Part shown: positions 38,554 through 55,737 of the stretch, one piece after another
Layout of the letters: the number at the start of each line of letters is the position of its first letter
Position numbering within the stretch: the stretch's first letter is position 1
Assembly (NCBI RefSeq): GCF_005145045.1
Contig: NZ_CP039694.1
Span: 310,001 to 374,000, forward strand
Direction of reading: 5' to 3'
DNA from: Agrobacterium larrymoorei
Lineage (GTDB): Bacteria; Pseudomonadota; Alphaproteobacteria; Rhizobiales; Rhizobiaceae
Length of the DNA stretch: 64,000 nucleotides
The notes under the pieces: model-generated
Database searches by the model: none
What the model saw: the letters and a program-made list of their open reading frames with translations, nothing else
What the model was told of the DNA's origin: nothing
Position numbers and translations under genes: made by a program

Positions 38554-38563
38554 CAGGCTATCC

Positions 38564-39511
38564 TCAGATGACGGGAGTTGGAAGCGTATCGCCAGCGAAG
38601 TGAGCCACGAGGTTGTCGCGCACCAGCTTGCCCATTGCTTTGCGGGTTTCAATTGTGCCCGAAGCGTGATGCGGCTGCACCAGAACATTGTCGAGTTTCA
38701 AGAAGCGCGGGTTGAGATTTGGCTCCCCTTCGAACACGTCGAGCGCGGCGGATCCAAGCGTGCCGCTTTCCAACGCGTCGAGCAGCGCATCCTCATCTAT
38801 ATTAGAAGCACGCGAGATGTTGATCAGCATGCCTTCCGGGCCAAGAGCTTCAAGGACCTCCTTCGAAACGATATGGCGCGTGGCGGCTGAAGCGGCGAGC
38901 GTAACAAACAGGAAGTCAGAGTGCCGGGCGAGTTCGACTGGATCGGCGATGAAGGTGATGTTCTTTGCAAAATCCTTTGCCGCCACATCGCTATAGGCAA
39001 TATCCATGTCGAAGCCCCTAAGGCGCTTGGTAACCTCAAAGCCTATCCGGCCTAGGCCCAGCACGCCTGCCTTCCGGCCCCAGACCTTTCGCTTTAGCGG
39101 GTAAAGGCCCTTCGCCGACCAGCTTCCGTCCTTTACCCACCGCTCCGCACCAATCATTCCGCGTGACTGAACGAGCATCATGGCCACACCGAGATCAGCG
39201 ACGTCGTTGGTCAGCACATCAGGCGTGTTGGTGACGCGAATGCCACGTGCGCGACAGGCCTCGAGATTGACTGCATCGTAGCCGACCCCGTACACCGACA
39301 CCACTTCCAGCTTCGGCAACCTGCCGATGAGCTCTGCCGAGGCACCGAGCTCTCCACGGGTAGCGATGCCGCGGATGTTTCCGCCATGCTGCTGCAGGAA
39401 TGCGTCGCGATCTGTCGCCTCATAAAGCTTGCGAACTTCAAATTTTGCCTCGAGCTCGACCAGATCCCATTCCGGGTATGGGCCGACAAGCAGAATCTCC
39501 GGCTTGGTCAT
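38564..39511 (-). CDS. D-isomer-specific 2-hydroxyacid dehydrogenase
   Basis: A 315-residue NAD(P)-dependent enzyme. The nucleotide-binding motif is VLGLGRIGFEV, the catalytic Arg is in INISRASNIDE, the Glu in LDVFEGEPN, and the His in LVQPHHASGT. The profile fits glyoxylate/hydroxypyruvate or 2-ketogluconate reductases. The second ATG was used because GGAGGAC precedes it. In an idonate/gluconate operon it probably reduces 2-keto-gluconate or a C3 keto acid. Confidence 0.88.
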   Translation of the reverse strand: MTKPEILLVGPYPEWDLVELEAKFEVRKLYEATDRDAFLQQHGGNIRGIATRGELGASAELIGRLPKLEVVSVYGVGYDAVNLEACRARGIRVTNTPDVLTNDVADLGVAMMLVQSRGMIGAERWVKDGSWSAKGLYPLKRKVWGRKAGVLGLGRIGFEVTKRLRGFDMDIAYSDVAAKDFAKNITFIADPVELARHSDFLFVTLAASAATRHIVSKEVLEALGPEGMLINISRASNIDEDALLDALESGTLGSAALDVFEGEPNLNPRFLKLDNVLVQPHHASGTIETRKAMGKLVRDNLVAHFAGDTLPTPVI

Positions 39512-39533
39512 AGTGTCCTCCATGATAAATTTA

Positions 39534-40109
39534 TCAATTGTCTGTTGCGGTCGCAAAACCGAACGCGGCGATGCGGGCGATGGCATCGTGAACGATCCGT
39601 TCGAGCGGCTGGTCGATTTCCACGGTCACTACGTCCCGCTCGCTTTGCGGTAGTTCCAGCGTGGCTAATTGGCTGTCGAGCAACGACAGCGGCATGTAAT
39701 GGCCTTCGCGGGCGCCCATCCGCGAGGCTAGCAGTGTCCGCGTTCCCTGCAGGAACACGAATGTCACCGGCCGCCCTGCCCTTGCCCGCAACAGGTCGCG
39801 GTAGGACCGTTTCAGCGCGGAGCAGGAGATGATGGTGCGCGCATCATCGCCGAGCTCAGTGCCGAGCACGTCCAGCCAGGGCCAGCGGTCGGCATCGTCA
39901 AGCGGAATGCCCTGGCGCATCTTCTCGACATTGGCGGTCGGATGACGGCTGTCGCCTTCGATGTAACGGCAGTCGAGCATGGACGCGAGCCTTTCGCCGA
40001 CGGATGTCTTGCCGCAACCGGAGACCCCCATCACGACGATCGGCCCGATGGCACCGGCAGTTTCAGAGAGACGTGGTGATGCCGCCGTCGACATAAAGCG
40101 TGTGTCCAT
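39534..40109 (-). CDS. gluconokinase (GntK/IdnK-type)
   Basis: Phosphorylates D-gluconate to 6-phosphogluconate. The 191-residue product has the P-loop GVSGCGKTS at 28-36, GDSRHPTANVEKMRQGIPLDD in two adjoining parts, and CSALKRSYRDLLR, which are gluconokinase hallmarks. The beginning overlaps the end of the upstream dehydrogenase gene by 32-47 bp depending on the start used (ATG at 40109 or 40094), so the N-terminus is uncertain. It fits with idnD/idnO homologues as the step that delivers gluconate into central metabolism. Confidence 0.87.
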   Translation of the reverse strand: MDTRFMSTAASPRLSETAGAIGPIVVMGVSGCGKTSVGERLASMLDCRYIEGDSRHPTANVEKMRQGIPLDDADRWPWLDVLGTELGDDARTIISCSALKRSYRDLLRARAGRPVTFVFLQGTRTLLASRMGAREGHYMPLSLLDSQLATLELPQSERDVVTVEIDQPLERIVHDAIARIAAFGFATATDN

Positions 40110-40830
40110 TCACGAAAGAGGAAGCCTTGCCGGACAGGAACACCGCAGCACCGACCAGTTCGTCGACATTGCCCCAGCGGGCAGCCGGCGTGCGTTTCTC
40201 CAGCCAGGACGAGAATTCCTCGCTGTCGACCAGCGCCTGGTTCAGCGGCGTCTTGAAGTAACCTGGCGCGAGCGCATTCACCTGCAGGCCATGTTTGGCC
40301 CAGTCGGTGCACATGCCGCGCGTCAGGTTTTTGACTGCACCCTTGGTGGCCGTATAGGGCGCGATGCCCGGACGGGCGAGTTCGCTCTGCACCGAGGCGA
40401 TGTTGATGATCTTGCCGCGACCGCGACCGATCATGTGCTTGGCAACCGCCTGACCGACGTAAAACACGCTGGAGACATTGGTCTTCAGCAACTGTTCCCA
40501 GCGGTCGACGGGAAAATCCTCCAGCGGTGCGCGGAACTGCATGCCGGCATTGTTGACGAGGATATCGATCGGCCCAACGCGGGCTTCGATCTCGTCGACA
40601 CCCTTACGCACGGCTTCGGCTTCGGTGACGTCGAAATCGGATGCAGATACTTTTGCACCGGCGGCGGTCAAATGGTTGACGGCCGTATCGAGTTTGGCCT
40701 TGTCGCGGCCGTTCAGCACCACTTCGGCGCCATGCGCGGCAAGCCCTTCGGCAAGCGCAAAACCAATTCCCTGCGAAGAGCCCGTCACTAGAGCCCGAAG
40801 GCCCGAAAGATCAAAAAGGTCGGAAACCAT
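40063..40830 (-). CDS. idnO: SDR family oxidoreductase, gluconate 5-dehydrogenase-like
   Basis: Reduces 5-keto-D-gluconate to D-gluconate, by similarity to IdnO/Gno. 255 residues: cofactor motif VTGSSQGIGFALAEGL, NNAGMQFRAPLEDF, active site Tyr-Lys in YTATKGAVKNL, and the conserved ending LYVDGGITTSL. The ATG with GAGGGC upstream was chosen over an in-frame TTG. Its start overlaps the tail of the aldolase gene and its end overlaps gluconokinase. Confidence 0.87.
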   Translation of the reverse strand: MVSDLFDLSGLRALVTGSSQGIGFALAEGLAAHGAEVVLNGRDKAKLDTAVNHLTAAGAKVSASDFDVTEAEAVRKGVDEIEARVGPIDILVNNAGMQFRAPLEDFPVDRWEQLLKTNVSSVFYVGQAVAKHMIGRGRGKIINIASVQSELARPGIAPYTATKGAVKNLTRGMCTDWAKHGLQVNALAPGYFKTPLNQALVDSEEFSSWLEKRTPAARWGNVDELVGAAVFLSGKASSFVNGHTLYVDGGITTSL

Positions 40831-40840: not shown

Positions 40841-41539
40841 TCAAGCAATCGCGTTTTTCACCGCCGCGAGACCGCGACGCAGGAACGGGTCCGAATGCAC
40901 GTAGAAGAACTGCACGCCCTTGCCGCGCCAATGCGGGATCTCATCGAGCGTAGCGAGCGTTCCGGCAATCTTGCCCGTCGCACGGATCTTGTCGACGGCA
41001 ACCGCCACCTTTTCCATGACAACATCCGGGCGCGGTTCGCCGAACGGCGGCGCCGGCGGATATCCCATGTCCTGTGACAGATCGCCGGGACCGATGAAAA
41101 ACACATCGATGCCTTCGACCTTCAGCATTTCTTCGAGTTCATCGATTGCATCAACGGTTTCGATCATGGCGATCACAAGCCGCTTTTCATAATCGGAGGG
41201 AATGGCGTAGCGAACGGCATCCACGATCGCGCGCGCTTCCTGCGCGTTGCCGATCATCGGCACCATGATGCCATCCGCGCCTGCATTCAGATAACGGATG
41301 ATCAGCGGCCGTTCGTGCGATTGCGGACGAACGATGGCGGCGCCACCCGCGCCCCTGACGATCTGCGCGGTTTCGCGCACATCTTCAAAACTCCAGGTCC
41401 CGTGCTCGCAGTCCACGAAGACCGCATCGGCCCCCAGTTCTACCAGACGCGCAGAAATTCCTGAATGCGTATGATGCGGCGTGAACATGCTGATGGCTTC
41501 ACCCGCAGCAAGACGTGCGCGCAGTTTTGCTCCATTCAT
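40841..41539 (-). CDS. HpcH/HpaI family aldolase
   Basis: A 232-residue metal-dependent class II aldolase that cleaves or forms 2-keto-3-deoxy-type acids with pyruvate. Motifs are FVDCEHGTWS, AMIETVDAIDELEEML with the metal-binding Glu, and IGPGDLSQDMGYP with the Asp. Length is slightly below HpaI, and the Trp/His-rich C-terminus differs. The ATG follows AGGGAGAGG. It stands between two SDR genes in the operon. Confidence 0.88.
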   Translation of the reverse strand: MNGAKLRARLAAGEAISMFTPHHTHSGISARLVELGADAVFVDCEHGTWSFEDVRETAQIVRGAGGAAIVRPQSHERPLIIRYLNAGADGIMVPMIGNAQEARAIVDAVRYAIPSDYEKRLVIAMIETVDAIDELEEMLKVEGIDVFFIGPGDLSQDMGYPPAPPFGEPRPDVVMEKVAVAVDKIRATGKIAGTLATLDEIPHWRGKGVQFFYVHSDPFLRRGLAAVKNAIA

Positions 41540-41554: not shown

Positions 41555-42361
41555 TTATTTCTTGCTTGGCATGTCCGGCGTATCGGCCGGAGCCCCGACC
41601 CAGCGTGCCGTCTCGATATCGGCGGACGTGTCACGCATATGAACCGGGCAGATATGCAGTTCGGGAATGACCGCGCTTTTGCCCAGGCTCGCACACAGGG
41701 CAATCGCGCGGGCAACTTCGTGAGGATCCATCATCACCGCGCGCTCTTCCTTGAGGGGCGGTCGCGCGCGGTTGTCCATGATCGGCGTGTCGGTTTCGCC
41801 GGGCAAGATGGTCGTCGCCCGAATGCCCTGATTTCGGTAGGTGTTGTGGAGGAAAGACATGAAATTCTTCACGCCCGCCTTGGCCGCACCGTAAGCGACG
41901 CCACCGAGAAGGTTGGGATTGACGACGGCCAGAGACGAAACCGTAATGATGGTTCCCTCATTTCTCGCTATCATGTCGGGCAATACGGCTTGCGTCAGAT
42001 TGAAGACGGCCGTCAGGTTGACATTGATGGTCGAGTTCCACTCTTCCTCGCTGATGAAGCGGGCGTTGAGAACCTTGCTGGCGCTGCCAGCATTGTTGAC
42101 GAGGGTATCAACCGAGCCGATGCCCTCCTTCACCCACTTGATCGTTTCGAATATCTCGTCGCGCGATGCAATATCGAGCGCGCGAACAAAGGCCTTGCCT
42201 TTCTTCTTTTCGATCAAGGCCGCTACTTCGCGCAACGGTTCGAGACGGCGCCCGGTAAGAACAAGGGTTGCCCCCTCCTTGGCGAGAAGAAGGGCCGTCT
42301 CCCGACCGATACCTGAGCCTGCACCGGTGACGAGCGCGATCTTTCCGTTGAGCAACCCCAT
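41555..42361 (-). CDS. SDR family NAD(P)-dependent oxidoreductase
   Basis: A 268-residue classical short-chain dehydrogenase: VTGAGSGIGRE (11-21), NNAGSASKVLN, ITVSSLAVVNP for the catalytic Ser and YGAAKAGVKNF for Tyr-Lys. The extended C-terminus (ICPVHMRDTSADIETARW) is unusual for the small SDRs. The substrate is unknown. It is 9 bp downstream of the hydantoinase B gene, so it is a candidate for a step linking amide hydrolysis to the sugar-acid branch. Confidence 0.87.
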   Translation of the reverse strand: MGLLNGKIALVTGAGSGIGRETALLLAKEGATLVLTGRRLEPLREVAALIEKKKGKAFVRALDIASRDEIFETIKWVKEGIGSVDTLVNNAGSASKVLNARFISEEEWNSTINVNLTAVFNLTQAVLPDMIARNEGTIITVSSLAVVNPNLLGGVAYGAAKAGVKNFMSFLHNTYRNQGIRATTILPGETDTPIMDNRARPPLKEERAVMMDPHEVARAIALCASLGKSAVIPELHICPVHMRDTSADIETARWVGAPADTPDMPSKK

Positions 42362-42370: not shown

Positions 42371-44047
42371 CTATTCTGCTGCGACCGGAATCGGGCCAGT
42401 ATAGCCATAGATGTTCTTGGCTGACTGCGGTAAAACGAGCTTATCAGCAAGATCCTGCTCGATGAGTGCAGATGAGCGTTCGCTGGCTCGACCCCAGCCA
42501 CCACCGCCGGGCGTTTCGACTTCCAGCCTTTCGCCGGTTTTCAGAACGACCTTGCCCTTGGGGAAATGCGGCTCGCCCTCTTTCATTACCTTCCCGGCGG
42601 TCCCGCTTTGACCTCCGACGACACCGAAGCAGGGGTGACGAACCCGTTCGGAGGCCAGATAGATGTTCATCGGGTTATTGCCGAGGTTACGAAGCACGAC
42701 GCGCTGGCCAAGACCGCCGCGATGCTTTCCCGCACCGCCAGAATCGGCAATGAGCTCTTTACGTTCCGTCAGAACAGGTACGGCAACCTCGAACATCTCA
42801 ACCGCCGTCACCTTGCAGTTAGACGGGAAGCTCAGCGTGTCGAGACCATCGAATTCCGATCGCGCACCCTGCCCACCATGAAAATTTTGCACGGATGCAT
42901 ATTGGGAGCCGTCGTTGCGCTGCCCGACGCAGTTGGCCGCCCAGATCGGCGCCCCGCCGCTGTCGCCCAGCACCTTGTGTGGAACAATCCCCTCCAGAGC
43001 CCGGAAGATGAGTGACGGAATGACATGGCCGATGAGGTTACGGGAGTTACCCGCTGTCCATTCCTGCGGATTGAGAATGCAGCCCAATGGAGCCTCATCC
43101 GTAATCGGAACGATACAGCCCTCATTGTTTGGCGTTTCGGCGTCAAGAAGGCACTTTAGCGCGTATACCGAATGAGCATAACGATAATTGGTACGGCAAT
43201 TGATCGAATGCAGGACCTGATCCGACGTGCCGGTGTAATCGACATGGATGGAATCGTCCTTGACGATAACCGCTGCCTTGAGCGTGACATCGACGTCATA
43301 CCCATCCAGGAGAACTTCGGCACTATAGGTGCCGTTCGGCCATTCGCGGATCGCCTTGCGGGTCTGGGCCTCGGAACGGGAGTGAATTGCCTGCGCCAGC
43401 CCTTCGACGTCATCGAGACCATACTCGTCGAGAAACTTCACCAGTTCCCGGCCCATGACGTTGTTTGCCGCAATCATCGATTCCAGATCGCCACGCACTT
43501 CAATCGGCATACGAACGGAAGCTTCGATGATGTCGAATACATCCTCGTTGGGGACGCCGGCCTTGAGGAGCTTCACAATCGGGAAACGAATTCCCTCCGC
43601 AAATATATCGCTCGCTTCGGAGTGCAGTGGCGCGCCACCGATATCGGGCAGGTGGGCAATCGATCCGGCATAGGCGACGACCTTGCCGTTCTTGAAGATC
43701 GGCGTGATCATCGTCACGTCCGGCAGGTGGCCCGTACCGATTTCCGGATCGTTAGTCGCAAGCACGTCGCCTTCGACCAGTTTTTCCGCCGGGAATTTCG
43801 GCAGAAAATACTTCTGGGCAGCGGCGGGCAGCGAGGTGATGAAGACCGGGATGGACCATGTGCACTGGGCAAGCGCTCTGCCCTTCGCATCGAGAAGGAC
43901 GGTGACGTAGTCATGGTTCTCACGGACGATAGGCGAGAAAGCCGTTTTGCCAAGTACGTTGTCGGCCTGGTCCGCGATGAAGATCAAGCGGTTCCACATG
44001 ACTTGCAGATTGATCGGATCATTGAAATCGGTGGCGGGTTTCGACAT
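42371..44047 (-). CDS. hyuB: hydantoinase/oxoprolinase beta subunit (HyuB family)
   Basis: A 558-residue B subunit that, with the A subunit, hydrolyses a cyclic amide in an ATP-dependent way (5-oxoproline, N-methylhydantoin or similar). Family motifs include FSPIVRENHDYVTVLLDAKG, ATNDPEIGTGHLPDVTMI, HSINCRTNYRYAHSVYALKC and the C-terminal TPGGGGWG. The order A then B with 12 bp between is the standard arrangement. Acetone and acetophenone carboxylases share the family, but those need a third small subunit that is not seen here. Confidence 0.9.
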   Translation of the reverse strand: MSKPATDFNDPINLQVMWNRLIFIADQADNVLGKTAFSPIVRENHDYVTVLLDAKGRALAQCTWSIPVFITSLPAAAQKYFLPKFPAEKLVEGDVLATNDPEIGTGHLPDVTMITPIFKNGKVVAYAGSIAHLPDIGGAPLHSEASDIFAEGIRFPIVKLLKAGVPNEDVFDIIEASVRMPIEVRGDLESMIAANNVMGRELVKFLDEYGLDDVEGLAQAIHSRSEAQTRKAIREWPNGTYSAEVLLDGYDVDVTLKAAVIVKDDSIHVDYTGTSDQVLHSINCRTNYRYAHSVYALKCLLDAETPNNEGCIVPITDEAPLGCILNPQEWTAGNSRNLIGHVIPSLIFRALEGIVPHKVLGDSGGAPIWAANCVGQRNDGSQYASVQNFHGGQGARSEFDGLDTLSFPSNCKVTAVEMFEVAVPVLTERKELIADSGGAGKHRGGLGQRVVLRNLGNNPMNIYLASERVRHPCFGVVGGQSGTAGKVMKEGEPHFPKGKVVLKTGERLEVETPGGGGWGRASERSSALIEQDLADKLVLPQSAKNIYGYTGPIPVAAE

Positions 44048-44059: not shown

Positions 44060-46123
44060 TTAGAGAATGTTGATCACGAGGTTGCCGTGCGCATCGACAT
44101 GGAAGACGCCGCTTGGACCCACGACCGCTGTTGATTCACGCTGTTCGACGATTGCAGGCCCCTTGACCGCCTCACCGACCGGCAGTTTGTAATGGTCATA
44201 AACGGACGTCTCGACGTAGGTTCCCGCTTCCTGAAAGTAGACCTGACGGCTACCCTTTTTGGCGTCGGCAACAACAGTTTCGTGCGGGCGCGTAACCTGA
44301 TCCTTGTCCCCGCTGGCGCGCAAACGCCAGGTGATGACTTCGAGGGGCGCAGCAACGGTTCTGCCGAACAGTTCTCGATAGAGCTTGAAGAAGGCGTCGC
44401 GCAATTCCTGAAGAAACTGCTCTTTCGGCAAGGTCCGATCCGGCAGGACGATGGTGATTTCATGCCCCTGCCCTACGTGCCGCATATCCACGGTGTAACG
44501 ATTGGCAATGGTGTCCTTCGGTACGCCTGCCGCAGAAACGACTTCGGCACCTTGGGCCGCAAGGTCGTCCAGAAGCGTATTCATGGCATCGATATTCCAC
44601 GCATCCAGCGCCATCGGATGGCTGACCGAAAGATCGACGGCCACGGGTGCGATCAACAGTCCAATGGCGGAACTGACACCGGCGCCGGTCGGGCAGATGA
44701 TCCGCGAAATGCCGAGCTTTCGGGCGATACCGTAGGCATGGACCGGCCCGGCACCACCAAACGCGACCATGGGCAGCGAACGCGGGTCGACGCCGAGATC
44801 GGTCGCGTGCATCGCGGCGGCCTTGCTCATGGATTCGTTGACCAGATCGTGGATGCCCCAGGCGCAGCGCTCCACCGAAACATCGAGCGAAGTCGCAAGC
44901 TTTTCCATCGCAACGCGCGCTGCATCCTTGGAAACCTTGAAAGAGCCGCCGACGAAGGATTCCGTCCCCATGTAGCCGAGCAGAATGTCCGCATCCGTGA
45001 CCGTTGGTTCGGTGCCGCCGCGCTGGTAGGCCGCCGGTCCCGGCATTGCGCCAGCAGAATGCGGGCCGACATCCAGAAGACCAAGAGGGTTTCTGGCCGC
45101 AATGGAGCCGCCGCCCGCACCGATTTCGATCATCTGGATCGACTGAATTTTCAGCGGGAAGCCGGAGCCTTTGCGGAACCGCTGATAATGGGCGACCTCG
45201 AGATCCGTGCCGACATTCGGCTCGCCATCCGGGATCAGGCAGAGCTTTGCGGTCGTGCCGCCCATATCGAAGGACAACACGCTGTTTTCGCCAGCGGTGC
45301 GGCCGAATTCGGCAGCGGCGACAGCGCCTGCGGCCGGGCCCGATTCAATCAGGCGCACCGGAAGCTCCGCAGCGCGCTGGCTCGGCACCAGACCGCCGGA
45401 AGATGTCATCCACAGAACCTGACGGTCGATGCCTTTTTGCGCGAATTCGCGCTGAAGATGAGCAACGTGGCCCGCCATTTGCGGGCGTGTATAAGCGTTT
45501 ACCACCGTGGTGGATGCACGATCGAACTCGCGCATTTCCGGGCAGACTTCCGAAGAAAGCGAAACGAAAATATCGGGATTTTCTTCACGAAGAAGGGCTG
45601 CGACACGCTTTTCATGCTGCGGATATTTGTAGGCATGCAGCAGGCAGACTGCGACCGAGCTGATACCCTTCTCCTTCAGCCGACCGGCGATTTCGCGCAC
45701 GGTTTCTTCCATCAGTTCAGTGATGACCGAACCATCGGCTGCGATGCGTTCCTGAGCACCGAAGCTGTTCGAGCGGGTGACCAGCGGATCGGGATATTTG
45801 ATGTTGAGATCATAGAGATCGTAGCGCCCCTCGTTGCGGATGCGCAGCATGTCCTGAAAGCCGTCCGATGTTACAAAACCTGTCTCGACGCCCTTACGCT
45901 CCAATACGGCATTGGTCACGACAGTCGTTGCACCCAGAACCTGGATGTTGTCGATCGAAATTGTTGCGGCGTGCTTTTCGAGCAACTCGGATACGCCCTG
46001 AACGACAGCTTCGGCAGGGTTTTTCGGTGTGCTCAGGACCTTGTGCAGATGGAGTTCTCCACTGTCATCAAGCAGAGCGAAGTCGGTAAAAGTACCGCCA
46101 GTGTCGAAAGCAAGTTTTGCCAT
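44060..46123 (-). CDS. hyuA: hydantoinase/oxoprolinase alpha subunit (HyuA family)
   Basis: A 687-residue ATP-binding A subunit. The N-terminal actin-like segment is FDTGGTFTDFALLD, the middle LIESGPAAGAVAAAEF followed by SFDMGGTTAKLCLI, and later VAFGGAGPVHAYGIARKLG. The ATP chemistry activates a cyclic amide for opening. The start at MAKLAFDTGG was chosen because it follows GAGGGAAC; the longer frame runs into the regulatory region. It is the first gene of the eight-gene minus-strand unit and carries the shared promoter block about 100 bp upstream. Confidence 0.92.
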   Translation of the reverse strand: MAKLAFDTGGTFTDFALLDDSGELHLHKVLSTPKNPAEAVVQGVSELLEKHAATISIDNIQVLGATTVVTNAVLERKGVETGFVTSDGFQDMLRIRNEGRYDLYDLNIKYPDPLVTRSNSFGAQERIAADGSVITELMEETVREIAGRLKEKGISSVAVCLLHAYKYPQHEKRVAALLREENPDIFVSLSSEVCPEMREFDRASTTVVNAYTRPQMAGHVAHLQREFAQKGIDRQVLWMTSSGGLVPSQRAAELPVRLIESGPAAGAVAAAEFGRTAGENSVLSFDMGGTTAKLCLIPDGEPNVGTDLEVAHYQRFRKGSGFPLKIQSIQMIEIGAGGGSIAARNPLGLLDVGPHSAGAMPGPAAYQRGGTEPTVTDADILLGYMGTESFVGGSFKVSKDAARVAMEKLATSLDVSVERCAWGIHDLVNESMSKAAAMHATDLGVDPRSLPMVAFGGAGPVHAYGIARKLGISRIICPTGAGVSSAIGLLIAPVAVDLSVSHPMALDAWNIDAMNTLLDDLAAQGAEVVSAAGVPKDTIANRYTVDMRHVGQGHEITIVLPDRTLPKEQFLQELRDAFFKLYRELFGRTVAAPLEVITWRLRASGDKDQVTRPHETVVADAKKGSRQVYFQEAGTYVETSVYDHYKLPVGEAVKGPAIVEQRESTAVVGPSGVFHVDAHGNLVINIL

Positions 46124-46219
46124 AGTTCCCTCAAAGCGACCTCGCAGCCTTTGGTGCTGCTTTGCAGACCCATCGTTCAGGTCCGTTTCTGAGGAGAGGT
46201 TAGGAGAGACTGGCATGCA

Positions 46220-46262
46220 TTGGCCAACACAACTACAGTCTGCCGCTATAGGGTTTGCTTAT
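46220..46262 (-). promoter_or_regulatory. 43-bp promoter block shared with the Liv operon, with ATA-N9-TAT
   Basis: This block matches 53416-53458 at 38 of 43 positions and lies upstream of the hyuA start. Inside it ATA-GGGTTTGCT-TAT (46248-46262) fits the Nac consensus ATA-N9-TAT. A Nac-like LysR gene lies directly next to it, so it is a likely binding site. It may include or neighbour the hyu promoter. Confidence 0.6.
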
Positions 46263-46407
46263 GACAGTGGTAGCGTTTCAAACACCGAACTTGCATTCGC
46301 GGTAAGCGTACCGCGCGACAAATCAGTGCTGTTAGCACCGATGATGTGCTCATATGTGCGCGGCATTCGAGTGGCGACAGAGCTTTCAGGCGACAGCCGC
46401 GTTCAGA

Positions 46408-47346
46408 TTAAATCGCGCGAATGCCTGGGTGATGTTCGCTCTGCATCTTGGCGACGATCTCGAGGAGAACCGATCGTGCCGCGAGCGCCGGTTCGGACAA
46501 CGGAAGATGGTCGGAGGTACATAGAGACACGGTTGCATCGATCACCGGCTTGGTGAGAGGATGCATCTGCGCACCTTGAAAACTTGTGGTTTCCAGAACC
46601 ACGGATGCGGGCAGGATCGTCGAACCGAGGCCATCCAAAACAGCGGCGCTGAGTGCTGGGATGGATTCCAGCTCCGATATGACCTCGGGCTTTGCCCGCG
46701 CCCGACCGACCGCATCGTCGATCAAACGCCGCAAGAAATGCGATTTGCTCGGCAATAGCAGCGGCATCGCGTCCAGAGACGATAGAGGCAACGCCTTGCC
46801 GGGCGCTTCAGGAAGCGTCATGCCCGCAGGCGAGACCAGATACATTTCCTCCCGGAACAACGGCCGCAGTGACACGCCTTTGATCGGATCCGATGTATAT
46901 ATGAGCGCCATGTCCATTTTGCCGGTCATGATCAGCTCGCTCAGGATATGGCCAAAACTGTCATTGATATGCACTGTGATATCGGGAAACCGTGCTCTCA
47001 TTGCCTTAATCAGCGGGAGAGACAGCGCGCTTGAGGAGGAATAGGTTGCCAAACCAATCGAAACCCGGCCCGACAAGGACCGTGCGGACTGATCGATATC
47101 GATCTGCGTCTGCTCGATCTGCTTTAGCATGATCTGAGCGTTTCGATAGAGAATAAGCCCTGCTTCCGTCGGGGTAATGCCGACATTGCTGCGGATGAGA
47201 AGCTGGTGCTTGAAGTGTTGTTCTAGCGAAGCAATCTGCTGGGACAGGGCCGGCTGCGCGACACGAAGGATACTGGCTGCGCGCGACACACTTCCCGTAT
47301 CGATTATCTTTACAAAGCTCTTCAGTTTCTTGAAATCAACGCTCAT
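46408..47346 (-). CDS. LysR family regulator, Nac (nitrogen assimilation control)-like
   Basis: A 312-residue LysR protein. The N-terminal helix-turn-helix reads LKSFVKIIDTGSVSRAASILR and then VAQPALSQQIASLEQHF. The segment LLIRSNVGITPTEAG and the following linker resemble Nac/Cbl-type regulators more than amino-acid or aromatic LysR proteins. The ATG with CGGGGA upstream was preferred over an in-frame GTG four codons earlier. It lies between the hydantoinase and aminotransferase/Liv units and is the obvious candidate to read the shared ATA-N9-TAT sites. Confidence 0.85.
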   Translation of the reverse strand: MSVDFKKLKSFVKIIDTGSVSRAASILRVAQPALSQQIASLEQHFKHQLLIRSNVGITPTEAGLILYRNAQIMLKQIEQTQIDIDQSARSLSGRVSIGLATYSSSSALSLPLIKAMRARFPDITVHINDSFGHILSELIMTGKMDMALIYTSDPIKGVSLRPLFREEMYLVSPAGMTLPEAPGKALPLSSLDAMPLLLPSKSHFLRRLIDDAVGRARAKPEVISELESIPALSAAVLDGLGSTILPASVVLETTSFQGAQMHPLTKPVIDATVSLCTSDHLPLSEPALAARSVLLEIVAKMQSEHHPGIRAI

Positions 47347-47375
47347 GGTTCCCCGCACTTTTTGGGGAGATTAGG

Positions 47376-47411
47376 CCGTGTCGAAGGGCATAAGCAAGCC
47401 CTCCGACACGG
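47376..47411 (-). terminator. long hairpin after the aminotransferase gene
   Basis: CCGTGTCG-A-AGGGC pairs with GCCCT-C-CGACACGG, giving 13 pairs with one mismatch around an 8-nt loop. It begins 11 bp after the aminotransferase stop (minus strand) and 29 bp before the LysR start. The T-run that a classical terminator would have is absent. Confidence 0.55.
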
Positions 47412-47422
47412 ATTGGGGATCG

Positions 47423-48631
47423 TCAATTAAGAGCCTTGACCGCCTGCTCGATCCGGTCACAAGCTTCCTCGATTACCTCCATCGAGGTTGCGTAGGAAAT
47501 GCGGAAATATGGAGACAGCCCGTACGCTGCGCCCTGCAATGCCGCCACACCGACGCCATCGAGGAGATACAGCACGAAATCGAGATCGCTCTCGATCACC
47601 TTTCCGTCCGGTGTCGTTTTACCGATCACGCCTGCACAGTTCGGGTAGAGATAAAATGCACCATCCGGCACATAGCAAGACAAACCGTCGATGGCGTTCA
47701 GGCGGGAGCAGGCATAGTCACGACGCTCCTTGTAGACCTTCACACTTTCGCCAATGAAAGCCTGATCGTTCGAGAGCGCATGGGCCGCAGCAGCCTGGCT
47801 GATGGAAGATGGGCAGGACGACATCTGCGACTGAAGCTTGTTGATGGCCGCAATCAAAGGTGCCGGACCGCCAGCATAACCAATGCGCCAGCCTGTCATC
47901 GCATAAGACTTGGATACGCCATTTGCGAGCAGGATGCGTTCCTTCAACGCTGGCACAGCCGCCACCAGGGTCGTCATCGGTTCATCCTGGAACCAAACCT
48001 GGTCATAGATGTCGTCACACAGGACGAAAACCTGCGGATGACGAAGCAGGACCTCGCCAAGCGCTTCAAGCTCGCTTCGGCTGTACGCGGCGCCCGTCGG
48101 GTTCGAAGGTGCATTCAGGATAAGCCAGAGGGTCTTCGGCGTGATCGCCTTTTCGAGCGCGTCGGGCGTAAGCTTGAAACCAGTTTCTTCCGGGCAGGCG
48201 ACAATGACGGGCTTTCCTTCATTGGCTATGACTATGTCTGGATAGGAAACCCAGTAGGGAGCAGGGATGATGACCTCGGCATCGTTCTCCACACTCGCCA
48301 TCAGCGCGAGGAAGAGTATCTGCTTTGCACCGCCGCCCACGCAGATTTCATTGTCCGCATAGGTCACGCCGAGACGGCGCTCGAAATCGCCGATGATCGC
48401 CTTGCGCAGCGCAGGCGTGCCGTTGACTGCCGTATATTTCGTCTCGCCACGATCAATCGCAGCGTGAGCCGCAGCCTTGACGTTATCCGGTGTATCGAAA
48501 TCCGGCTCGCCCACGGTCAGGTCCATGATGCTGCGGCCAGCCGCCTTCAACTCACGCGCCTTTGCGGCGGCAGCCGTGCTTGGAGAAATCTTGATCCTGG
48601 AAACCCGCGACGCGGGCACGAAGGTACTCAT
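47423..48631 (-). CDS. PLP-dependent aminotransferase, aspartate aminotransferase-like (class I)
   Basis: A 402-residue fold-type I enzyme transferring amino groups between an amino acid and a 2-keto acid. Key segments are TVGEPDFDTPDNVKAA, TKYTAVNGTPALRKAI, APYWVSYPDI, the Asn-Pro segment NAPSNPTGAAYSRSELE, the PLP lysine in NGVSKSYAMTGWRIGY, and a C-terminal arginine in FRISYATSMEVIEEA. The group resembles subgroup I-gamma aspartate/prephenate aminotransferases common in alphaproteobacteria. It is downstream of livF and likely the last gene of the Liv unit, coupling amino-acid uptake to deamination. Confidence 0.9.
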   Translation of the reverse strand: MSTFVPASRVSRIKISPSTAAAAKARELKAAGRSIMDLTVGEPDFDTPDNVKAAAHAAIDRGETKYTAVNGTPALRKAIIGDFERRLGVTYADNEICVGGGAKQILFLALMASVENDAEVIIPAPYWVSYPDIVIANEGKPVIVACPEETGFKLTPDALEKAITPKTLWLILNAPSNPTGAAYSRSELEALGEVLLRHPQVFVLCDDIYDQVWFQDEPMTTLVAAVPALKERILLANGVSKSYAMTGWRIGYAGGPAPLIAAINKLQSQMSSCPSSISQAAAAHALSNDQAFIGESVKVYKERRDYACSRLNAIDGLSCYVPDGAFYLYPNCAGVIGKTTPDGKVIESDLDFVLYLLDGVGVAALQGAAYGLSPYFRISYATSMEVIEEACDRIEQAVKALN

Positions 48632-48680
48632 GAAATTGTCCTCGGTTTGTTTTTATCTGTCGATTGAAGCTGTGGCACCG

Positions 48681-49424
48681 TCAGTGCACGGCATCCAGTT
48701 CGTCGCGCATCTTGCCCGTCAGGAAGAGTTCCCCAAGCTCGTCATGGCTTATGTCTGCCGGCTTGCCATCCCAGATTACCTTGCCAAGACGCAGGATAAC
48801 GGCGCGCTGCGCGACCTCCATCGCCTTCTTCGTGTTCTGTTCGACAAGCAGAATGGTCATGCCTTCCGCATGGAGCCGCAGCAATTCGTTAAAAACGATG
48901 CCGATCGCTGCGGGCGATAGCCCCACAGACGGTTCATCGACCAGCAGCACCTTGGGACGCTGAAGGACAGCCATGGCCACTTCCAGCAACTGCTGTTCAC
49001 CGCCGGACATGTTTCCGGCAAGCGTGGAACGGCGGGTCTTGAGAATGGGAAACAGATCGTACAAGTAGTCGCGATCGGCCTTCACCTTCGCATCGCGGAT
49101 GGTATAGGCCGCCATTTGCAGGTTCTCATCCACGGTCATGACCGGAAAGTTGCACCGCCCCTGCGGGACGAAGGAAATGCCATCTCCCAGGATAGACTTC
49201 GACTTTGCTCCCGCAATGTTCTTGCCCCGCCAGTGGATATCGCCTTCCTTGACGGTGGTCATGCCGTAAAGGGTCTTGAGCAGAGTGGATTTGCCCGCGC
49301 CGTTCGGCCCCATCAGGGCAACGAACTCACCGGCTGGAACATCCAGATCGACACCGTTCAGAATATCGAGATTTCCGTATCCTGCGCGCAGGCCTTTGAT
49401 GGAAAGATTGCTGTCAGCCGCCAA
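48681..49424 (-). CDS. livF: branched-chain amino acid-type ABC transporter ATP-binding protein LivF
   Basis: A 247-residue ATPase with Walker A GPNGAGKST (39-47), NMSGGEQQLLEVAMAVLQRP as the LivF-type signature, and Walker B VLLVDEPSVGLSP. It pairs with LivG to energise uptake. It overlaps the end of livG by 11 bp. Confidence 0.93.
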   Translation of the reverse strand: MAADSNLSIKGLRAGYGNLDILNGVDLDVPAGEFVALMGPNGAGKSTLLKTLYGMTTVKEGDIHWRGKNIAGAKSKSILGDGISFVPQGRCNFPVMTVDENLQMAAYTIRDAKVKADRDYLYDLFPILKTRRSTLAGNMSGGEQQLLEVAMAVLQRPKVLLVDEPSVGLSPAAIGIVFNELLRLHAEGMTILLVEQNTKKAMEVAQRAVILRLGKVIWDGKPADISHDELGELFLTGKMRDELDAVH

Positions 49425-50187
49425 GATAGGCCTCCCTCACGCGCTGGTCGTTGATGATTTCCTGTGGCAGTCCTTCAACGAGCTTTGCGCCCTGATCAAG
49501 CACGACGACACGCTGGCAAATGCTGGTCACGACATCGATATTGTGCTCGATCACGAGGAAGCTGACGCCCAGTGACTTGTTGGCGTACTGGATTGTTTCG
49601 ACCACACGTTCGATGATCTTGGGATTGATGCCAGCCATCGGCTCGTCGAGAAGGATGATTTTCGGCTCCGGCATGAGCATGGAGGCGAACTGGATCAACT
49701 TCTGCTGCCCCCCGGACAAATTACCCGCCGGTTGGTGCCGCACATCCCACAAGCCCGCCATCTTGATCAATTCACGAGCCCGTTCCCGCAGGGCATTGAT
49801 GCGGCTGCGCGAAACCTTGCCGATACCGAACGTCGAAGCCAGTGTCCGAAAGGTAAACATCTGGCCTGCGATGATGAGGTTTTCCTCCACGTCCAAAGCC
49901 TTGAATGTAACCGTATTCTGGAACGAGCGGAGCATGCGTCCCTCCCGCGCGATGCGGTTGAGTGACCATCCGGTTATATCCTGGCCATCCAGAAAGACCG
50001 TTCCCGCGCTTGGCTGCGCCAACCCCGTCGTGCAGTCGAAGAAAGTCGATTTTCCGGAACCGTTCGGGCCGATCAATCCTGCGATTTCACCGCGATTGAC
50101 ATGCATGCTGACGTCGTTGACGGCACGGACCGCACCGTAGGACTTACTGAGATTGCGAATGTCCAGAATGGGAAGATGCGAAGTCAT
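49414..50187 (-). CDS. livG: branched-chain amino acid-type ABC transporter ATP-binding protein LivG
   Basis: A 257-residue ATPase: Walker A GPNGSGKST (40-48), the LivG-specific insert ITGWSLNRIAREGRMLRSFQ, signature NLSGGQQKLIQFASML, and Walker B ILLDEPMAGINPK. The start at MTSHLPILDI overlaps the livM stop (ATGA). The longer frame is a shadow of livM. Confidence 0.93.
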   Translation of the reverse strand: MTSHLPILDIRNLSKSYGAVRAVNDVSMHVNRGEIAGLIGPNGSGKSTFFDCTTGLAQPSAGTVFLDGQDITGWSLNRIAREGRMLRSFQNTVTFKALDVEENLIIAGQMFTFRTLASTFGIGKVSRSRINALRERARELIKMAGLWDVRHQPAGNLSGGQQKLIQFASMLMPEPKIILLDEPMAGINPKIIERVVETIQYANKSLGVSFLVIEHNIDVVTSICQRVVVLDQGAKLVEGLPQEIINDQRVREAYLGG

Positions 50188-51170
50188 TTCGAACCTCCGA
50201 TTGCGTTCCAGAAGCGATTGATCAAAGGTGCAAGGCCGTTTTTGAACCAGAAGACAAGAGCCAGAAGGCACAGACCATATGCGATCATGCGCAACTCGGG
50301 CGCCACGCGAAGCGCTTCCGTCAGTCCCACGAAAAGCAGGCTTCCGAGTACAGTGCCGGAGATCATTCCCGCGCCACCGCCAAGAACGATGATCAGCATA
50401 GTGGTCGAGTAGTACATCTGAAAGGTCAGAGGGCTGACAACGGTGAGATAGTGCGCATAAAGGCAACCTCCCACGCCCGCAAAGACCGCGCTCAGCATGA
50501 ATACGATCAATTTATAGCGCCATGTCGGCACTCCGAGCGACTCCGCCAGAGTTTCGTTCTCACGGATTGCCACCATGTTACGACCAGCGGGAGACCGTAC
50601 GAGAGCCCAGGCAATCAGAGTTCCCAACACGGTGATCGCCAGCGCGAGGTAATAGAAGCTGGTGGTTCCGCTGATCGCGAAGGAGAGCGGCCCCAGTTCG
50701 AAGTATGGCTTCGGTATGCCCGAAAGGCCCATATCGCCGCGGGTCAGCGAAATCCAGTTCTTGGATATCGCCTGACCAATGATGACGAAGCCGAGCGTAC
50801 ACATGACGAACGAGGTCGAACGCAGGCGCAGCGCCGGGATGCCGAGAGGCAGAGCGATGGCGCCCGACACCAGACCCGCAGCGATCAGATTGATGTAGAA
50901 TGGCGTATTGTAATGAACAGCGAGCAGACCTGCCGTATAGGCGCCGATGCCGAAAAACGCAGCCTGCGCCAATGACAGAAGACCGGTATAGCCAACGAGC
51001 AGATTGAGCCCATGGGCCGGAAGCATGAAGATCAACGCGATGATCAGCGAGTGGGTCACATAGCGCGTGCCGATGAATGGTGCGGCGAGTGCGATGACGA
51101 TCAGGACGGCGGCGAGCGGAATGCGCAAATCGCGACGGCGTGCCCGGGAAGCAGTGTCCGTGAGAGACAT
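50184..51170 (-). CDS. livM: branched-chain amino acid-type ABC transporter permease LivM
   Basis: A 328-residue inner-membrane permease with the LivM hallmarks LPAHGLNLLVGYTGLLSLAQ and FFGIGAYTAGLL, the AIRENETLAESLGV loop that contacts the ATPases, and GGAGMISGTVLGSLLF. It is 42 bp downstream of livH. Confidence 0.93.
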   Translation of the reverse strand: MSLTDTASRARRRDLRIPLAAVLIVIALAAPFIGTRYVTHSLIIALIFMLPAHGLNLLVGYTGLLSLAQAAFFGIGAYTAGLLAVHYNTPFYINLIAAGLVSGAIALPLGIPALRLRSTSFVMCTLGFVIIGQAISKNWISLTRGDMGLSGIPKPYFELGPLSFAISGTTSFYYLALAITVLGTLIAWALVRSPAGRNMVAIRENETLAESLGVPTWRYKLIVFMLSAVFAGVGGCLYAHYLTVVSPLTFQMYYSTTMLIIVLGGGAGMISGTVLGSLLFVGLTEALRVAPELRMIAYGLCLLALVFWFKNGLAPLINRFWNAIGGSK

Positions 51171-51212
51171 GTCGGGTCCTCAGTGTTCGAGAAGGTTCGG
51201 CGGGCGCAACAT

Positions 51213-52085
51213 TCAGAAGCGCGCCTGCGTCGAAAACAGGCCATGGGGCCGCCACATCAGCATCAGGATAAGCGTCGCAAATCCAACGGTGTCACGGAAC
51301 TGGAGGCCGATATAGGTGGCGACCAGGCTCTCGGCGATACCCAGGATCATGGCAGCGTAGAAGGTGCCCCGAACGTTACCAAGGCCTCCCATGATGATGA
51401 TCGGAAGTGTCTTGAAGGTGATGAGTTCACCCATGCCGCCGTAAACGCTGACATTCACCGGCGCCGTCAGGACACCCGACAGTGCGGCAAGCGCCGCACC
51501 GAGAATGAAGGTGCGTAACACGACCTGAGGGACATCTATACCAACCACGCCACAGCACTGAATATTCTGCGATACGGCACGCATGGCCATACCTAATCGG
51601 CTGTATGTCACCATCAACTCAAGACCGACGAACACCAGAAGGCACACGACGAGGATGATGATGCGCTGCTGCGCAAGGGAAAAGCCGAAAACGGAGATGG
51701 GTTCGATGTACCCGCCTGCGAAGAACTTGTAACCGCCGCCAAACACGAAAATGACGGTGTTTTGAAGAATGAGCGCGATACCAAGGGTGGCGAGAACGCC
51801 GGACTCCGCCGGCGCCCCCACCATCCTGCGCATCACCAGTTGTCCTACGACATAAGCCACTACGATCGTCGACAGAACACCAACGACAATCGAAGCTTCA
51901 TAGGAAAGACCGAGATAGTCGATGGCAAACCACGCCCCGAAAGTCCCTAGCATGTAATATTCGCCGTGAGCGAAGTTGATGGCTCGAAGCACGCCGAAAA
52001 TCATCGTCATGCCGACGGCGACGATGGCATAAACGGAACCGGTGACGATACCGTTTATGACCTGCTCGATAATTGTCGAGAACAT
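51213..52085 (-). CDS. livH: branched-chain amino acid-type ABC transporter permease LivH
   Basis: A 290-residue permease with the LivH segments GIVTGSVYAIVAVGMTMIFG, INFAHGEYYMLGTFG, MRAVSQNIQCCGVVGID and GGLGNVRGTFYAAMILG. It is 20 bp after the receptor gene. Confidence 0.93.
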   Translation of the reverse strand: MFSTIIEQVINGIVTGSVYAIVAVGMTMIFGVLRAINFAHGEYYMLGTFGAWFAIDYLGLSYEASIVVGVLSTIVVAYVVGQLVMRRMVGAPAESGVLATLGIALILQNTVIFVFGGGYKFFAGGYIEPISVFGFSLAQQRIIILVVCLLVFVGLELMVTYSRLGMAMRAVSQNIQCCGVVGIDVPQVVLRTFILGAALAALSGVLTAPVNVSVYGGMGELITFKTLPIIIMGGLGNVRGTFYAAMILGIAESLVATYIGLQFRDTVGFATLILMLMWRPHGLFSTQARF

Positions 52086-52105
52086 GGCAATCTCCCTCCC
52101 GTCTG

Positions 52106-53290
52106 TTACTGAGCCGGGTACTGGATTTCTGCCGTATAGGCGCCCTTGATGCTTGGTTTGCCGTTTTCGATCTGTAGCAGGATCATCGGCAGACGGGCCT
52201 GGTTATGATCGTCGAACGTAACCTCGCCGACGGGGCTGGTATATTTGATTTTCGAAAGAGTATCCCGCACCTTTTCCTTATCCGAACTTCCAGCTTGCTT
52301 TATGGCCTGGGCAAGCAGGTTCACCGTGTCCCAGTGGACATAGGCGTGGTTGTTTGGCGCTTCCTTGTAGGTCGTGGTAAACTTTTCGACGAAAGCCTTG
52401 CTTGCAGGGCTATCGAACTGAGGCAGCCACGCTGCGGCTTCGACCGCTCCCTCCATGGCCTTCGGTGCAGCCTGGATCGTTTTCTCGGTATTGAACTCGC
52501 CATTACCGATCAGCGTAACCTTGCCGGCAAGCCCAAGCTCCAGCATCTGACGCGCAATGATGGGTGTCGTATCGGCCAGACCATACATGATGATGGCCTG
52601 CGCACCATTGTCGCGAATTTTTGCGAGAACGCTGCGGAAATCGACTTCGCCTTCCTTGTAATAGTCTTCGCTAAGGATTTCGCCCTTGAAATCGGGAAGG
52701 TATTTCTTCGTAAAGGTAACTGCCGAACGGCCATAGTCGCTATCGACCGAAAGTACCGCGAACTTGGTGAAACCGCGCTGTTCAGCGGCGTATTTGGCAA
52801 CCACGAACGCACGGTTTTCATCGGTCGGATAGTTGCGGAAGGTCCACTTAAAGCCGCCGACACCAGCTTGATAGGTGATCTTCGGGTTGGAAGAAGCAGC
52901 GTTAAGAAGCAGAATTTCGGCATCTTCGGCTACAGGCTGCATGGCAAGCGTCACCGAACTGGAGACGTCGCCGATAACGAAACTGACGCCATCTTGGTCG
53001 ATTAGGCGGCGCGTTGCAGAGACGCCTTCAACCGGCGTTCCCTGACTATCGGCGTTGAAGAGTTCGATCTTCTGCCCATTGATACCACCGGCATCGTTGA
53101 TGTCTTTCACCGCCAGTTCGGCGCCGCGCAAGGAGAAAGCGCCGTATCGCGCATTCGGACCGCTCATCGGTGCGACCACGCCCACCTTGATGCTATCTGC
53201 GGCTATCGCGTGGGTGATCGGCTGTGCACCAAATGCCAAGATGGCAGCTGTGGAAATTAGAAGAAACCTGCGTGTAATTCTACGTGTCAT
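52106..53290 (-). CDS. branched-chain amino acid-type ABC transporter substrate-binding protein
   Basis: A 394-residue periplasmic receptor (Peripla_BP_6). The signal peptide FLLISTAAILAFGAQPITHAI is followed by ADSIKVGVVAPMSGPNARYG. Other landmarks are DINDAGGINGQKIELF, FVIGDVSSSVTLAM and the late VHWDTVNLLAQAIKQAGS. Such receptors bind branched amino acids, amides, urea or aromatic acids. The promoter block it shares with the hydantoinase operon suggests a nitrogenous ligand, which is inference. Confidence 0.92.
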   Translation of the reverse strand: MTRRITRRFLLISTAAILAFGAQPITHAIAADSIKVGVVAPMSGPNARYGAFSLRGAELAVKDINDAGGINGQKIELFNADSQGTPVEGVSATRRLIDQDGVSFVIGDVSSSVTLAMQPVAEDAEILLLNAASSNPKITYQAGVGGFKWTFRNYPTDENRAFVVAKYAAEQRGFTKFAVLSVDSDYGRSAVTFTKKYLPDFKGEILSEDYYKEGEVDFRSVLAKIRDNGAQAIIMYGLADTTPIIARQMLELGLAGKVTLIGNGEFNTEKTIQAAPKAMEGAVEAAAWLPQFDSPASKAFVEKFTTTYKEAPNNHAYVHWDTVNLLAQAIKQAGSSDKEKVRDTLSKIKYTSPVGEVTFDDHNQARLPMILLQIENGKPSIKGAYTAEIQYPAQ

Positions 53291-53415
53291 GTTCCCACTC
53301 CGTTTTCGGATTTATCTTACCGGCCTCATGTCCGGTCGCCTCCTGCCGCTTATGCGGTTCTTTTCGATTAACGTCTCGCTAATCGTTAAAGCAGAGTAGG
53401 TCTGATATAGGTCAA

Positions 53416-53458
53416 TTGGCCAACACAACTCCTTTCTGCCGCTATAGCGTTTCCTTAT
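53416..53458 (-). promoter_or_regulatory. 43-bp promoter block shared with the hydantoinase operon, with ATA-N9-TAT
   Basis: This is the second copy of the block at 46220-46262, 38/43 identical, upstream of the Liv receptor gene. ATA-GCGTTTCCT-TAT spans 53444-53458 and includes part of the palindrome CGCTATAGCG. Its repetition at two operons flanking a Nac-like gene supports joint control. Confidence 0.6.
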
Positions 53459-53585
53459 ACCGAGGTCGTAGGATCCTCCTATCATCATCTCTGCGCTTGT
53501 TGCATGACTACCATGCATGCAAACGCCTAGTTTTTCACCGCGACATCGCACAAATAGAGGTCAATCAATTTAAGAGGAAACCGGA

Positions 53586-53726
53586 ATGCGAATTCAGGAC
53601 AAGCTGCGCAACTTCATCCGCACCCGACGCGCGATCGCTGAGCTTCACGCACTAGATGATAAGAACCTTGCTGATCTCGGAGTAAGCCGATCCCAGATTC
53701 GCGCCGCTGTGGAAGGTCGACTTTAA
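53586..53726 (+). CDS. DUF1127 small protein
   Basis: A 46-residue basic protein: MRIQDKLRNFIRTRRAIAEL, then ALDDKNLADLGVSRSQI. The LDDKxLADLGVSRSQI pattern is the diagnostic DUF1127 (YjiS-like) motif. Alphaproteobacteria encode several such small arginine-rich proteins; some affect RNA-binding regulation and carbon/phosphate metabolism. AGAGGAAACC precedes the ATG. It is the first gene after the Liv promoter, on the opposite strand, and marks the start of the small accessory island. The following 350 bp up to the HNH remnant hold only unconvincing ORFs. Confidence 0.85.
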   Translation: MRIQDKLRNFIRTRRAIAELHALDDKNLADLGVSRSQIRAAVEGRL

Positions 53727-54077
53727 TTTCAACTAGTTGCAGCTGTTCGAGATTAAACGGTGAGAGCAGGCATTTTTATACCAAAGAAAGCAGGCCGTAA
53801 GGGTCCATACATCCAGTCGGCTAAGGCAGGTATCCCACTGAAAGCCGAGCTCTTTGGAGTAGTTTGGACAATGAACGCAGACCTGTATGGATGTGGATTT
53901 CAGTTTCCTCAAGGGAGCGTTGACCCCCTCTTGTACTCAAGGAGCGGTCAATTTTCGAATGACAAGGTAGTCGCTAAGGGCTTCCGAAGAAATTTTTTAA
54001 TGCCTTACAATTGAGGGGATATGAACCGAAAACCCGCACTTGGAAATCTACCAGACTGAAAATATTCGAGACTTTGC

Positions 54078-55640: not shown

Positions 55641-55713
55641 TGACCAATGTTTCGATATAAAAATTGGTCACTAGCGTCGGAGTTGCCATTGGTGACCAAT
55701 TTTTGTATATAAT
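55641..55713 (+). promoter_or_regulatory. abiE promoter with ATTGGTCA inverted-repeat operators
   Basis: TGACCAAT (55641-55648), then ATATAAAAATTGGTCA (55655-55670), and its near-exact inverse TGACCAATTTTTGTATAT (55693-55710) are present, with ATTGGTGACCAAT (55688-55700) as a further dyad. A TATAAT -10 (55708-55713) overlaps the last repeat; TTGCCA at 55683 with 19-bp spacing is a possible -35. AbiEi antitoxins repress their operon by binding inverted repeats, so this is the likely autoregulatory site. Confidence 0.65.
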
Positions 55714-55737
55714 TTTTGGACACAATGTAGGGCAACC

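Follow-up and report, generated by a model that had tools for sequence, protein, structure and literature searches.

The question raised by this locus of Agrobacterium larrymoorei is what controls two tandem operons, one for Liv-type uptake and one for a HyuAB-type ring- or amide-opening enzyme, and what part is played by the LysR-type gene between them, which bears the family name of the nitrogen regulator NAC. In the window (the whole stretch of 64,000 nt analysed here, from a genome of 5,259,126 bases in four contigs), a first-pass annotation had recognized similar blocks upstream of the two operons, each with the Nac consensus ATA-N9-TAT, and had proposed a local nitrogen-responsive regulon. 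Comparison with related loci upholds the local, two-promoter part of that proposal, in which uptake is joined to the ring- or amide-opening operon, and leaves a nitrogen input possible but unsupported. Very probably the two blocks serve one local regulon as its operators and promoters, and the NAC-type LysR encoded between them would bind there and activate both operons. This reading draws on sequence comparison, which shows the conservation and geometry of both sites, confines them to genomes that have such a LysR and places a related module at promoters of related regulators; that the LysR binds and activates, what induces it, where transcription starts and how far the operons extend are predictions made on the same basis.

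The two blocks and their anatomy

Recomputation confirmed that 46220-46262 agrees with 53416-53458 at 38 of 43 bases, in the same orientation relative to the hyu and Liv-type operons, and that a Nac-like gene (46408-47340, which passes the NCBI NAC model) lies between them, as annotated at first pass. With one base added (46219-46262 versus 53415-53458), the identity becomes 39 of 44, a match for which the chance expectation between any two places of the 64-kb window is about 4e-9 under uniform base composition. Both blocks lie on the minus strand, which is the strand of both operons. The hyu-side block sits in the gap between the LysR gene and hyuA, its first base 139 bp upstream of the hyuA start (46123), and the other block is located 168 bp upstream of the start (53290) of the gene encoding the substrate-binding protein (SBP). 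ATA-N9-TAT is present in both, again in agreement with the earlier description. The predicted elements are as follows.

46219-46262, minus strand: 44-bp core of the block predicted to act as operator and promoter for the hyu operon (39/44 versus 53415-53458; kept in 48 of 48 related loci)
53415-53458, minus strand: 44-bp core of the block predicted to act as operator and promoter for the Liv-type uptake operon (39/44 match; kept in 48 of 48 related loci)
46245-46265, minus strand: predicted LysR regulatory site GTCATA-N9-TATAGC, a dyad of the T-N11-A type (from column frequencies and dyad matches)
53441-53461, minus strand: predicted LysR regulatory site GGTATA-N9-TATAGC (from column frequencies and dyad matches)
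46197-46227, minus strand: predicted hyu promoter, with -35-like TTGGCC (46222-46227), -10-like TAACCT (46197-46202) and a putative start near 46190
53393-53423, minus strand: predicted SBP promoter, with -35-like TTGGCC (53418-53423), -10-like TACTCT (53393-53398) and a putative start near 53386

The conservation of the blocks was assessed in 48 loci containing a relative of the LysR regulator (65-97% identical), all of which were used and which derive from Rhizobiaceae, Bradyrhizobium, Bosea, Microvirga, a Methylobacteriaceae bin, an Amaricoccus bin and unclassified Rhizobiales. The genes for the SBP, permeases, ATPases, LysR, HyuA, HyuB, a short-chain dehydrogenase/reductase (SDR) and an aldolase are kept in order in all 48 loci, the transaminase gene being missing in two (L049 and L051). 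In every locus the two best block matches fall upstream of the SBP gene (146-191 bp) and of hyuA (91-175 bp), with scores of 28-39 of 39 fixed positions and at most 23 at the third-best place. The mean frequency of the commonest base is 0.89 in the hyu block and 0.86 in the SBP block, versus 0.39 and 0.38 in the 66 preceding columns, and both blocks are also found in Terrarubrum (L104), outside the 48 loci. Between 10 Bradyrhizobium loci and 33 others, mostly from Rhizobiaceae, mean identity reaches 0.81 for the hyu blocks versus 0.68 for the SBP blocks, which makes the hyu copy the more constant one; within one genome, the two blocks share an identity of 0.68 in Bradyrhizobium and 0.81 in the 33 others. 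These figures are compatible with exchange between the copies and equally with its absence, and the occurrence of both copies in every lineage sampled suggests that the pair is old.

Along the operons, the dyad GYYATA-N9-TATRGC comes first and is followed by GCGGCAGA, a short variable stretch, AGTTGTGTTGGCC and, 18-19 bases on, TA. Three further conserved bases upstream of ATA, mostly GCC or GCT, complete the 6+6 dyad. Across the 48 loci, every one of the 96 sites matches at 4 or more of the 6 half-site bases, and 26 of the 48 hyu and 26 of the 48 SBP sites match at all 6. The downstream TA, which was not used for finding the blocks, is present in 44 of the 48 hyu sites, 14 times at +18 and 30 times at +19; among the 48 SBP sites, 46 have it at +19. 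With TTGGCC as the -35 and TANNNT as the -10 element, at a somewhat long predicted spacing of 18-19 bp, the dyad would be centred near -65 and the second half of the block would lie over -35.

According to the available part of PMC5603801, LysR activators usually have two sites, one of the T-N11-A type near -65 and one for activation near -35, and this layout, counted from the predicted start, is found here at the sequence level. BhbR1, a LysR regulator of bromohydroxybenzoate catabolism, is described in the available part of PMC12016517 as having an ATA-N9-TAT box in its -65 site and as protecting, without inducer, 54 bp (-75 to -22) around it. Since BhbR1 uses ATA-N9-TAT, the motif is good evidence for a LysR protein, and not for Nac or for nitrogen. 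The site near -65 and the second site near -35, predicted here, are shared with the LysR-activated catabolic promoters of PnpM/PnpR and BhbR1 (PMC5603801 and PMC12016517, as far as available), whereas those promoters serve other pathways, have another downstream half and do not show the arrangement of two tandem operons with the regulator gene between them.

The dyad could also pair as RNA, and the blocks stand 91-191 bp upstream of start codons, as might be imagined for an RNA leader (attenuator or riboswitch) in which the dyad forms a hairpin rather than a DNA operator. This explanation is highly improbable: no Rfam match at the gathering threshold was obtained within 45800-53800, C facing A is common at the outer pair, GCC faces AGC in 18 of the 96 sites, and the conserved TA at -10 spacing downstream of the block implies that the block is probably not transcribed.

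Distribution of the blocks and of related modules

Two near-identical blocks in one window might also have arisen as a dispersed repeat or as two chance copies of a mobile element, and the first-pass annotation had itself named a widely dispersed repeat as a refuting case. In the whole own genome, no third copy was found at up to 3 mismatches (a reversed-pattern control gave zero matches), nor was the block found in 29 other genomes of the genus, all without an orthologue of the LysR, and the fixed positions are conserved in all 48 loci. A dispersed repeat is ruled out at this sensitivity, and duplication by chance deserves practically no credence. The 29 genomes belong to a set of 39 from the genus, the own genome included, among which a LysR orthologue (76-100% identical) is present in 10, and the same 10 have exactly two blocks each. 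Among 394 sampled genomes of the family, two contain a LysR orthologue (E <= 1e-110), and the same two have the block.

A second NAC-type LysR in the own genome (C3:122319-123227, corresponding to L079 9823-10728; 323.8 bits) adjoins genes for PxpA/B/C-like proteins, biotin carboxylase, a transaminase, an SDR, a polar amino-acid ATP-binding cassette (ABC) transporter and an RraA-type aldolase, the names being given partly by comparison with annotated loci, and a related operator-promoter module lies upstream of its SDR gene (L079, from 10866, plus strand). When pxp-type loci were scanned with the block, in-register matches appeared at fitting places. NAC-type LysRs beside pxpABC (5-oxoprolinase) clusters of Rhizobiaceae, Bradyrhizobium, Microvirga, Burkholderia and Variovorax have a related module in the same register as the window, and these regulators are 44-48% identical to the window LysR where measured. 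As in the window, aminotransferase, SDR and aldolase genes stand near the regulator, joined in the annotated alphaproteobacterial clusters by an amino-acid ABC transporter; however, the pxp clusters encode PxpABC, biotin carboxylase and an RraA-type aldolase, and the window HyuAB and an HpcH-type aldolase instead.

A shared pattern of 22 fixed positions was derived from material that included the known sites of the window, L105, L106, L107 and L079; among the other loci, L109 and L110 come nearest to an independent test, though their sites had been seen beforehand, and L111 and L112 are near-copies of L107. Matches of at least 17 in the pxp-type loci all lie upstream of a cluster gene or, in one case, of a neighbouring gene. 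Three modules are found in Variovorax (L105), four in Burkholderia (L106), three each in Bradyrhizobium (L109) and Microvirga (L110), and one each in L079, L107, L108, L112 and the unannotated L111, there at the same place as in L112. The score never exceeded 16 in 60 simulated sequences with simple backgrounds. L105, L106, L109 and L110 together have 12 sites, 11 of them with TA at +18, and TA stands at the same distance in all 13 Rhizobiaceae pxp-type sites (seven distinct sequences, L108 not included).

For the survey of the genus, the pattern was fixed beforehand; the 20 hyu-type and 10 of the 30 pxp-type sites (L079, L092-L100) were previously known, and the remaining 20 pxp-type sites were new. 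All 30 genomes with a NAC-type LysR (E <= 1e-80) contained a match, versus none of the nine without. Of 51 matches in the 39 genomes, 50 fit 40 regulators (10 hyu-type with two sites each and 30 pxp-type with one each), the odd match (G027, C22) being at the 3-mismatch limit; the reversed pattern gave three matches. Across the own genome, the pattern recovered nothing but the two blocks and a single site next to the second NAC-type LysR. The site adjoins the regulator in 20 of the 30 pxp-type cases and is about 21 kb from it in the other 10, which are the lower-scoring ones. In G031, the only split case examined (C2:1113000-1143000, L116 and L117), the site precedes an SDR-transporter-aldolase operon, and the regulator, transaminase and pxp genes lie about 21 kb from that operon; the site has stayed with its target operon, as predicted for a regulator acting in trans.

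These data bear on whether the block is bound by a different regulator, the LysR having other targets. Features typical of LysR sites are confined to the dyad half, and the remainder of the block has no known owner, yet in all 39 genomes the shared pattern is present or absent together with a NAC-type LysR, and related modules occur beside the 44-48% identical LysRs of other clusters, so that a foreign regulator appears improbable.

Several points nevertheless weigh against a single local regulon under the NAC-type LysR. The two blocks differ in some columns and may for this reason bind with different strength, and part of the block could be used by another regulator. Because block and LysR lie in one cluster in most genomes, their co-occurrence alone mainly excludes a dispersed repeat. 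A stricter block pattern matched in 9 of 61 genomes, six of which had one copy only; there the second copy exceeded the limit of that pattern and was found with the later one. Ten of the 40 regulators score 302.7-306.9 bits, just below the NCBI NAC cut-off of 309; a NAC-type LysR above the cut-off is present in 23 of the 39 genus genomes, and seven genomes have only a sub-cut-off one. No module was found upstream of the biotin-carrier gene unit in the Rhizobiaceae pxp clusters (L107, L108 and L112), and the aminotransferase-LysR part of the uptake operon might have a promoter of its own.

The NAC label and the nitrogen question

The window LysR contains the HTH_1 (PF00126, 65.4 bits) and LysR_substrate (PF03466, 107.3 bits) domains and passes the NAC model NF008410 narrowly, with 323.4 bits versus a cut-off of 309 and 600 bits for E. 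coli Nac. It is 38% identical to E. coli Nac, the AQPALSQQ stretch of the DNA-binding domain being identical. A protein with 100% identity to the window LysR is encoded on a plasmid of Agrobacterium larrymoorei. In a 32-row tree, the hyu clade (99/100) is joined to the Rhizobiaceae pxp group (93/91), and E. coli Nac groups with the Variovorax, Bradyrhizobium and Microvirga pxp-type rows (95/81), its branch being long and of unsure place; the window LysR was not found to group with the enteric protein, which lies outside its clade. The 38% identity, the separate clade and the two NAC-type LysRs in one genome indicate that the NAC label is a family-level one.

Enteric Nac is made under the control of NtrC and sigma-54 at nitrogen shortage and is active without an inducer. 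Its enteric role is mentioned in the available parts of PMC9397018 and PMC8376909, and those of PMC5002191, PMC3596328 and PMC10746234 contained nothing usable on Nac. The enteric protein (Klebsiella, E. coli) and the window regulator share the NCBI family model and the ATA-N9-TAT core; unlike enteric Nac, the window regulator is embedded in a cluster with two local sites. A scan of 9 kb around E. coli nac gave no match to the extended module.

A nitrogen-responsive regulon, in which synthesis of the window LysR would depend on NtrC and sigma-54 at nitrogen shortage and the protein would act like enteric Nac without an inducer, would agree with the NAC-model match, with ATA-N9-TAT in both sites and with a cluster that could supply nitrogen. 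A perfect NtrC-like palindrome, AGCACCGATGATGTGCT (GCAC-N7-GTGC, 46334-46350, 9 of 12 consensus positions), is also present in the LysR-hyuA gap. However, no such perfect palindrome occurs in this gap or in the 450 bp upstream of the SBP gene in any of the 48 relatives, and the best sigma-54 match upstream of the SBP, hyuA and LysR genes reaches 7 of 11 positions in simple consensus scans, which can miss real sites. Moreover, ATA-N9-TAT also serves BhbR1 (PMC12016517, available part), the block occurs only twice in the genome, both times locally, the LysR gene is part of the very cluster that it is proposed to control, and the clade of the LysR does not include E. coli Nac. Nitrogen control is therefore an unlikely account of these operons, and the term 'nitrogen-responsive' of the first-pass annotation is unsupported, in view of a general LysR site, a family-level label, a sigma-54 match of 7/11 and a palindrome found in 0 of 48 relatives. 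The window LysR looks like a local and pathway-specific regulator that is named for a nitrogen regulator.

Cluster genes, proposed induction and wider meaning

The genes of the cluster, in their minus-strand order and with starts set by tblastn with window proteins, are listed below.

52106-53290, minus strand: amino-acid/amide-type ABC substrate-binding protein, SBP (best NCBIfam model PRK15404, 162.5 bits, below the cut-off of 477; PDB relatives 3ipc and 3ip5)
51213-52085, minus strand: Liv/Urt-type permease 1 (below the NCBIfam cut-offs)
50184-51170, minus strand: Liv/Urt-type permease 2 (below the NCBIfam cut-offs)
49414-50178, minus strand: ABC ATPase 1, LivG-like, exact start unsettled (below the NCBIfam cut-offs)
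48681-49424, minus strand: ABC ATPase 2, LivF/UrtE-like (below the NCBIfam cut-offs)
47423-48631, minus strand: aspartate transaminase, PRK06107 type (747.4 bits versus a cut-off of 617)
46408-47340, minus strand: NAC-type LysR regulator, 310 aa, GTG start picked to fit relatives (NF008410, 323.4 bits versus 309; HTH_1 and LysR_substrate)
44060-46123, minus strand: HyuA-type subunit of the hydantoinase/oxoprolinase/caprolactamase superfamily (530 bits, below the caprolactamase CapA cut-off of 1000)
42371-44047, minus strand: HyuB-type subunit (Hydantoinase_B PF02538, E 7e-148)
41555-42361, minus strand: SDR oxidoreductase (domain search)
40841-41539, minus strand: HpcH/HpaI-type aldolase (PF03328; below all NCBIfam cut-offs)

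The LysR gene starts 82 bp after the transaminase gene, and the uptake operon probably ends with these two genes. In the proposed mechanism, the LysR, presumably as a tetramer, would bind the dyad GYYATA-N9-TATRGC near -65 and the adjoining half overlapping -35, and, with a pathway compound bound, would activate both the Liv-type uptake operon and the hyuAB-SDR-aldolase operon. The inducer would most likely be such a pathway compound. Transcription from the uptake promoter probably extends through the LysR gene, which would make induction self-amplifying (positive feedback).

Identification of HyuAB as caprolactamase CapAB was rejected, since both scores (530 and 222 bits) are below the NF050156/NF050157 cut-offs of 1000, and the relatives of known structure of the SBP and the aldolase gave only family-level answers as to the substrate. 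The two cluster types have different but parallel enzymes, with lactam opening by HyuAB or PxpABC, an aspartate-type transaminase and an HpcH or RraA aldolase. The ATP-dependent lactam opening, transaminase and aldolase common to both would point to a cyclic amino-acid derivative, and, more tentatively, the parallel enzymes suggest substrates such as a 4-substituted 5-oxoproline, which would end as pyruvate and a small oxo-acid. The fourth module of the Burkholderia locus L106 (at about 1274, minus strand) lies upstream of an L-idonate 5-dehydrogenase gene, and an L-idonate dehydrogenase gene also stands directly before the cluster in R. johnstonii 3841, whose copy of the cluster is found at RL_RS34935-RL_RS34985; these genes hint at a sugar-acid part in the substrate. 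Near both NAC clusters of the own genome, a segment of about 2.6 kb is 92% identical (window 38001-40575 versus L079 15961-18532); it includes a gluconate-5-dehydrogenase-like SDR and a GntK-type kinase and has been duplicated or exchanged.

On the other side of the cluster, a small open reading frame of about 46 codons (about 53586-53726, plus strand, read by eye) is divergent from the SBP operon and presumably resembles DUF1127 proteins. Farther on, an inverted repeat at 55641-55722, with two 31-base arms that are 77% complementary and 20 bases apart, lies just upstream of an open reading frame at 55738.

A comparable system is the 5-oxoproline sensor PxpR of Corynebacterium glutamicum, which, as described in the available part of PMC13274462, locally controls a cluster for lactam use and has the substrate as its ligand, as proposed here, although it is a GntR-type repressor in another group of organisms and the window regulator is a LysR. 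No paper on the present cluster or its operator was found among those listed in searches of the openly licensed literature, which is no proof of absence from print, and such searches listed none on LysR regulation of pxp-type clusters.

The name 'nitrogen assimilation transcriptional regulator NAC' is given to a gene in many soil- and plant-associated bacteria, and the reading implied by that name is unsupported at this locus. It is conceivable, and offered here tentatively, that the non-enteric 'NAC' LysRs are local regulators of the catabolism of lactam- or 5-oxoproline-like compounds, with one module of about 65 bp at most of their transcription units, and that enteric Nac descends from such a regulator. 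The shared module provides a sequence test for what NAC-type LysRs control, namely the promoters of one catabolic cluster, and makes the search for the substrate practical. It also allows one to ask, on a concrete example, how a nitrogen regulator of global scope may have evolved from a local one.

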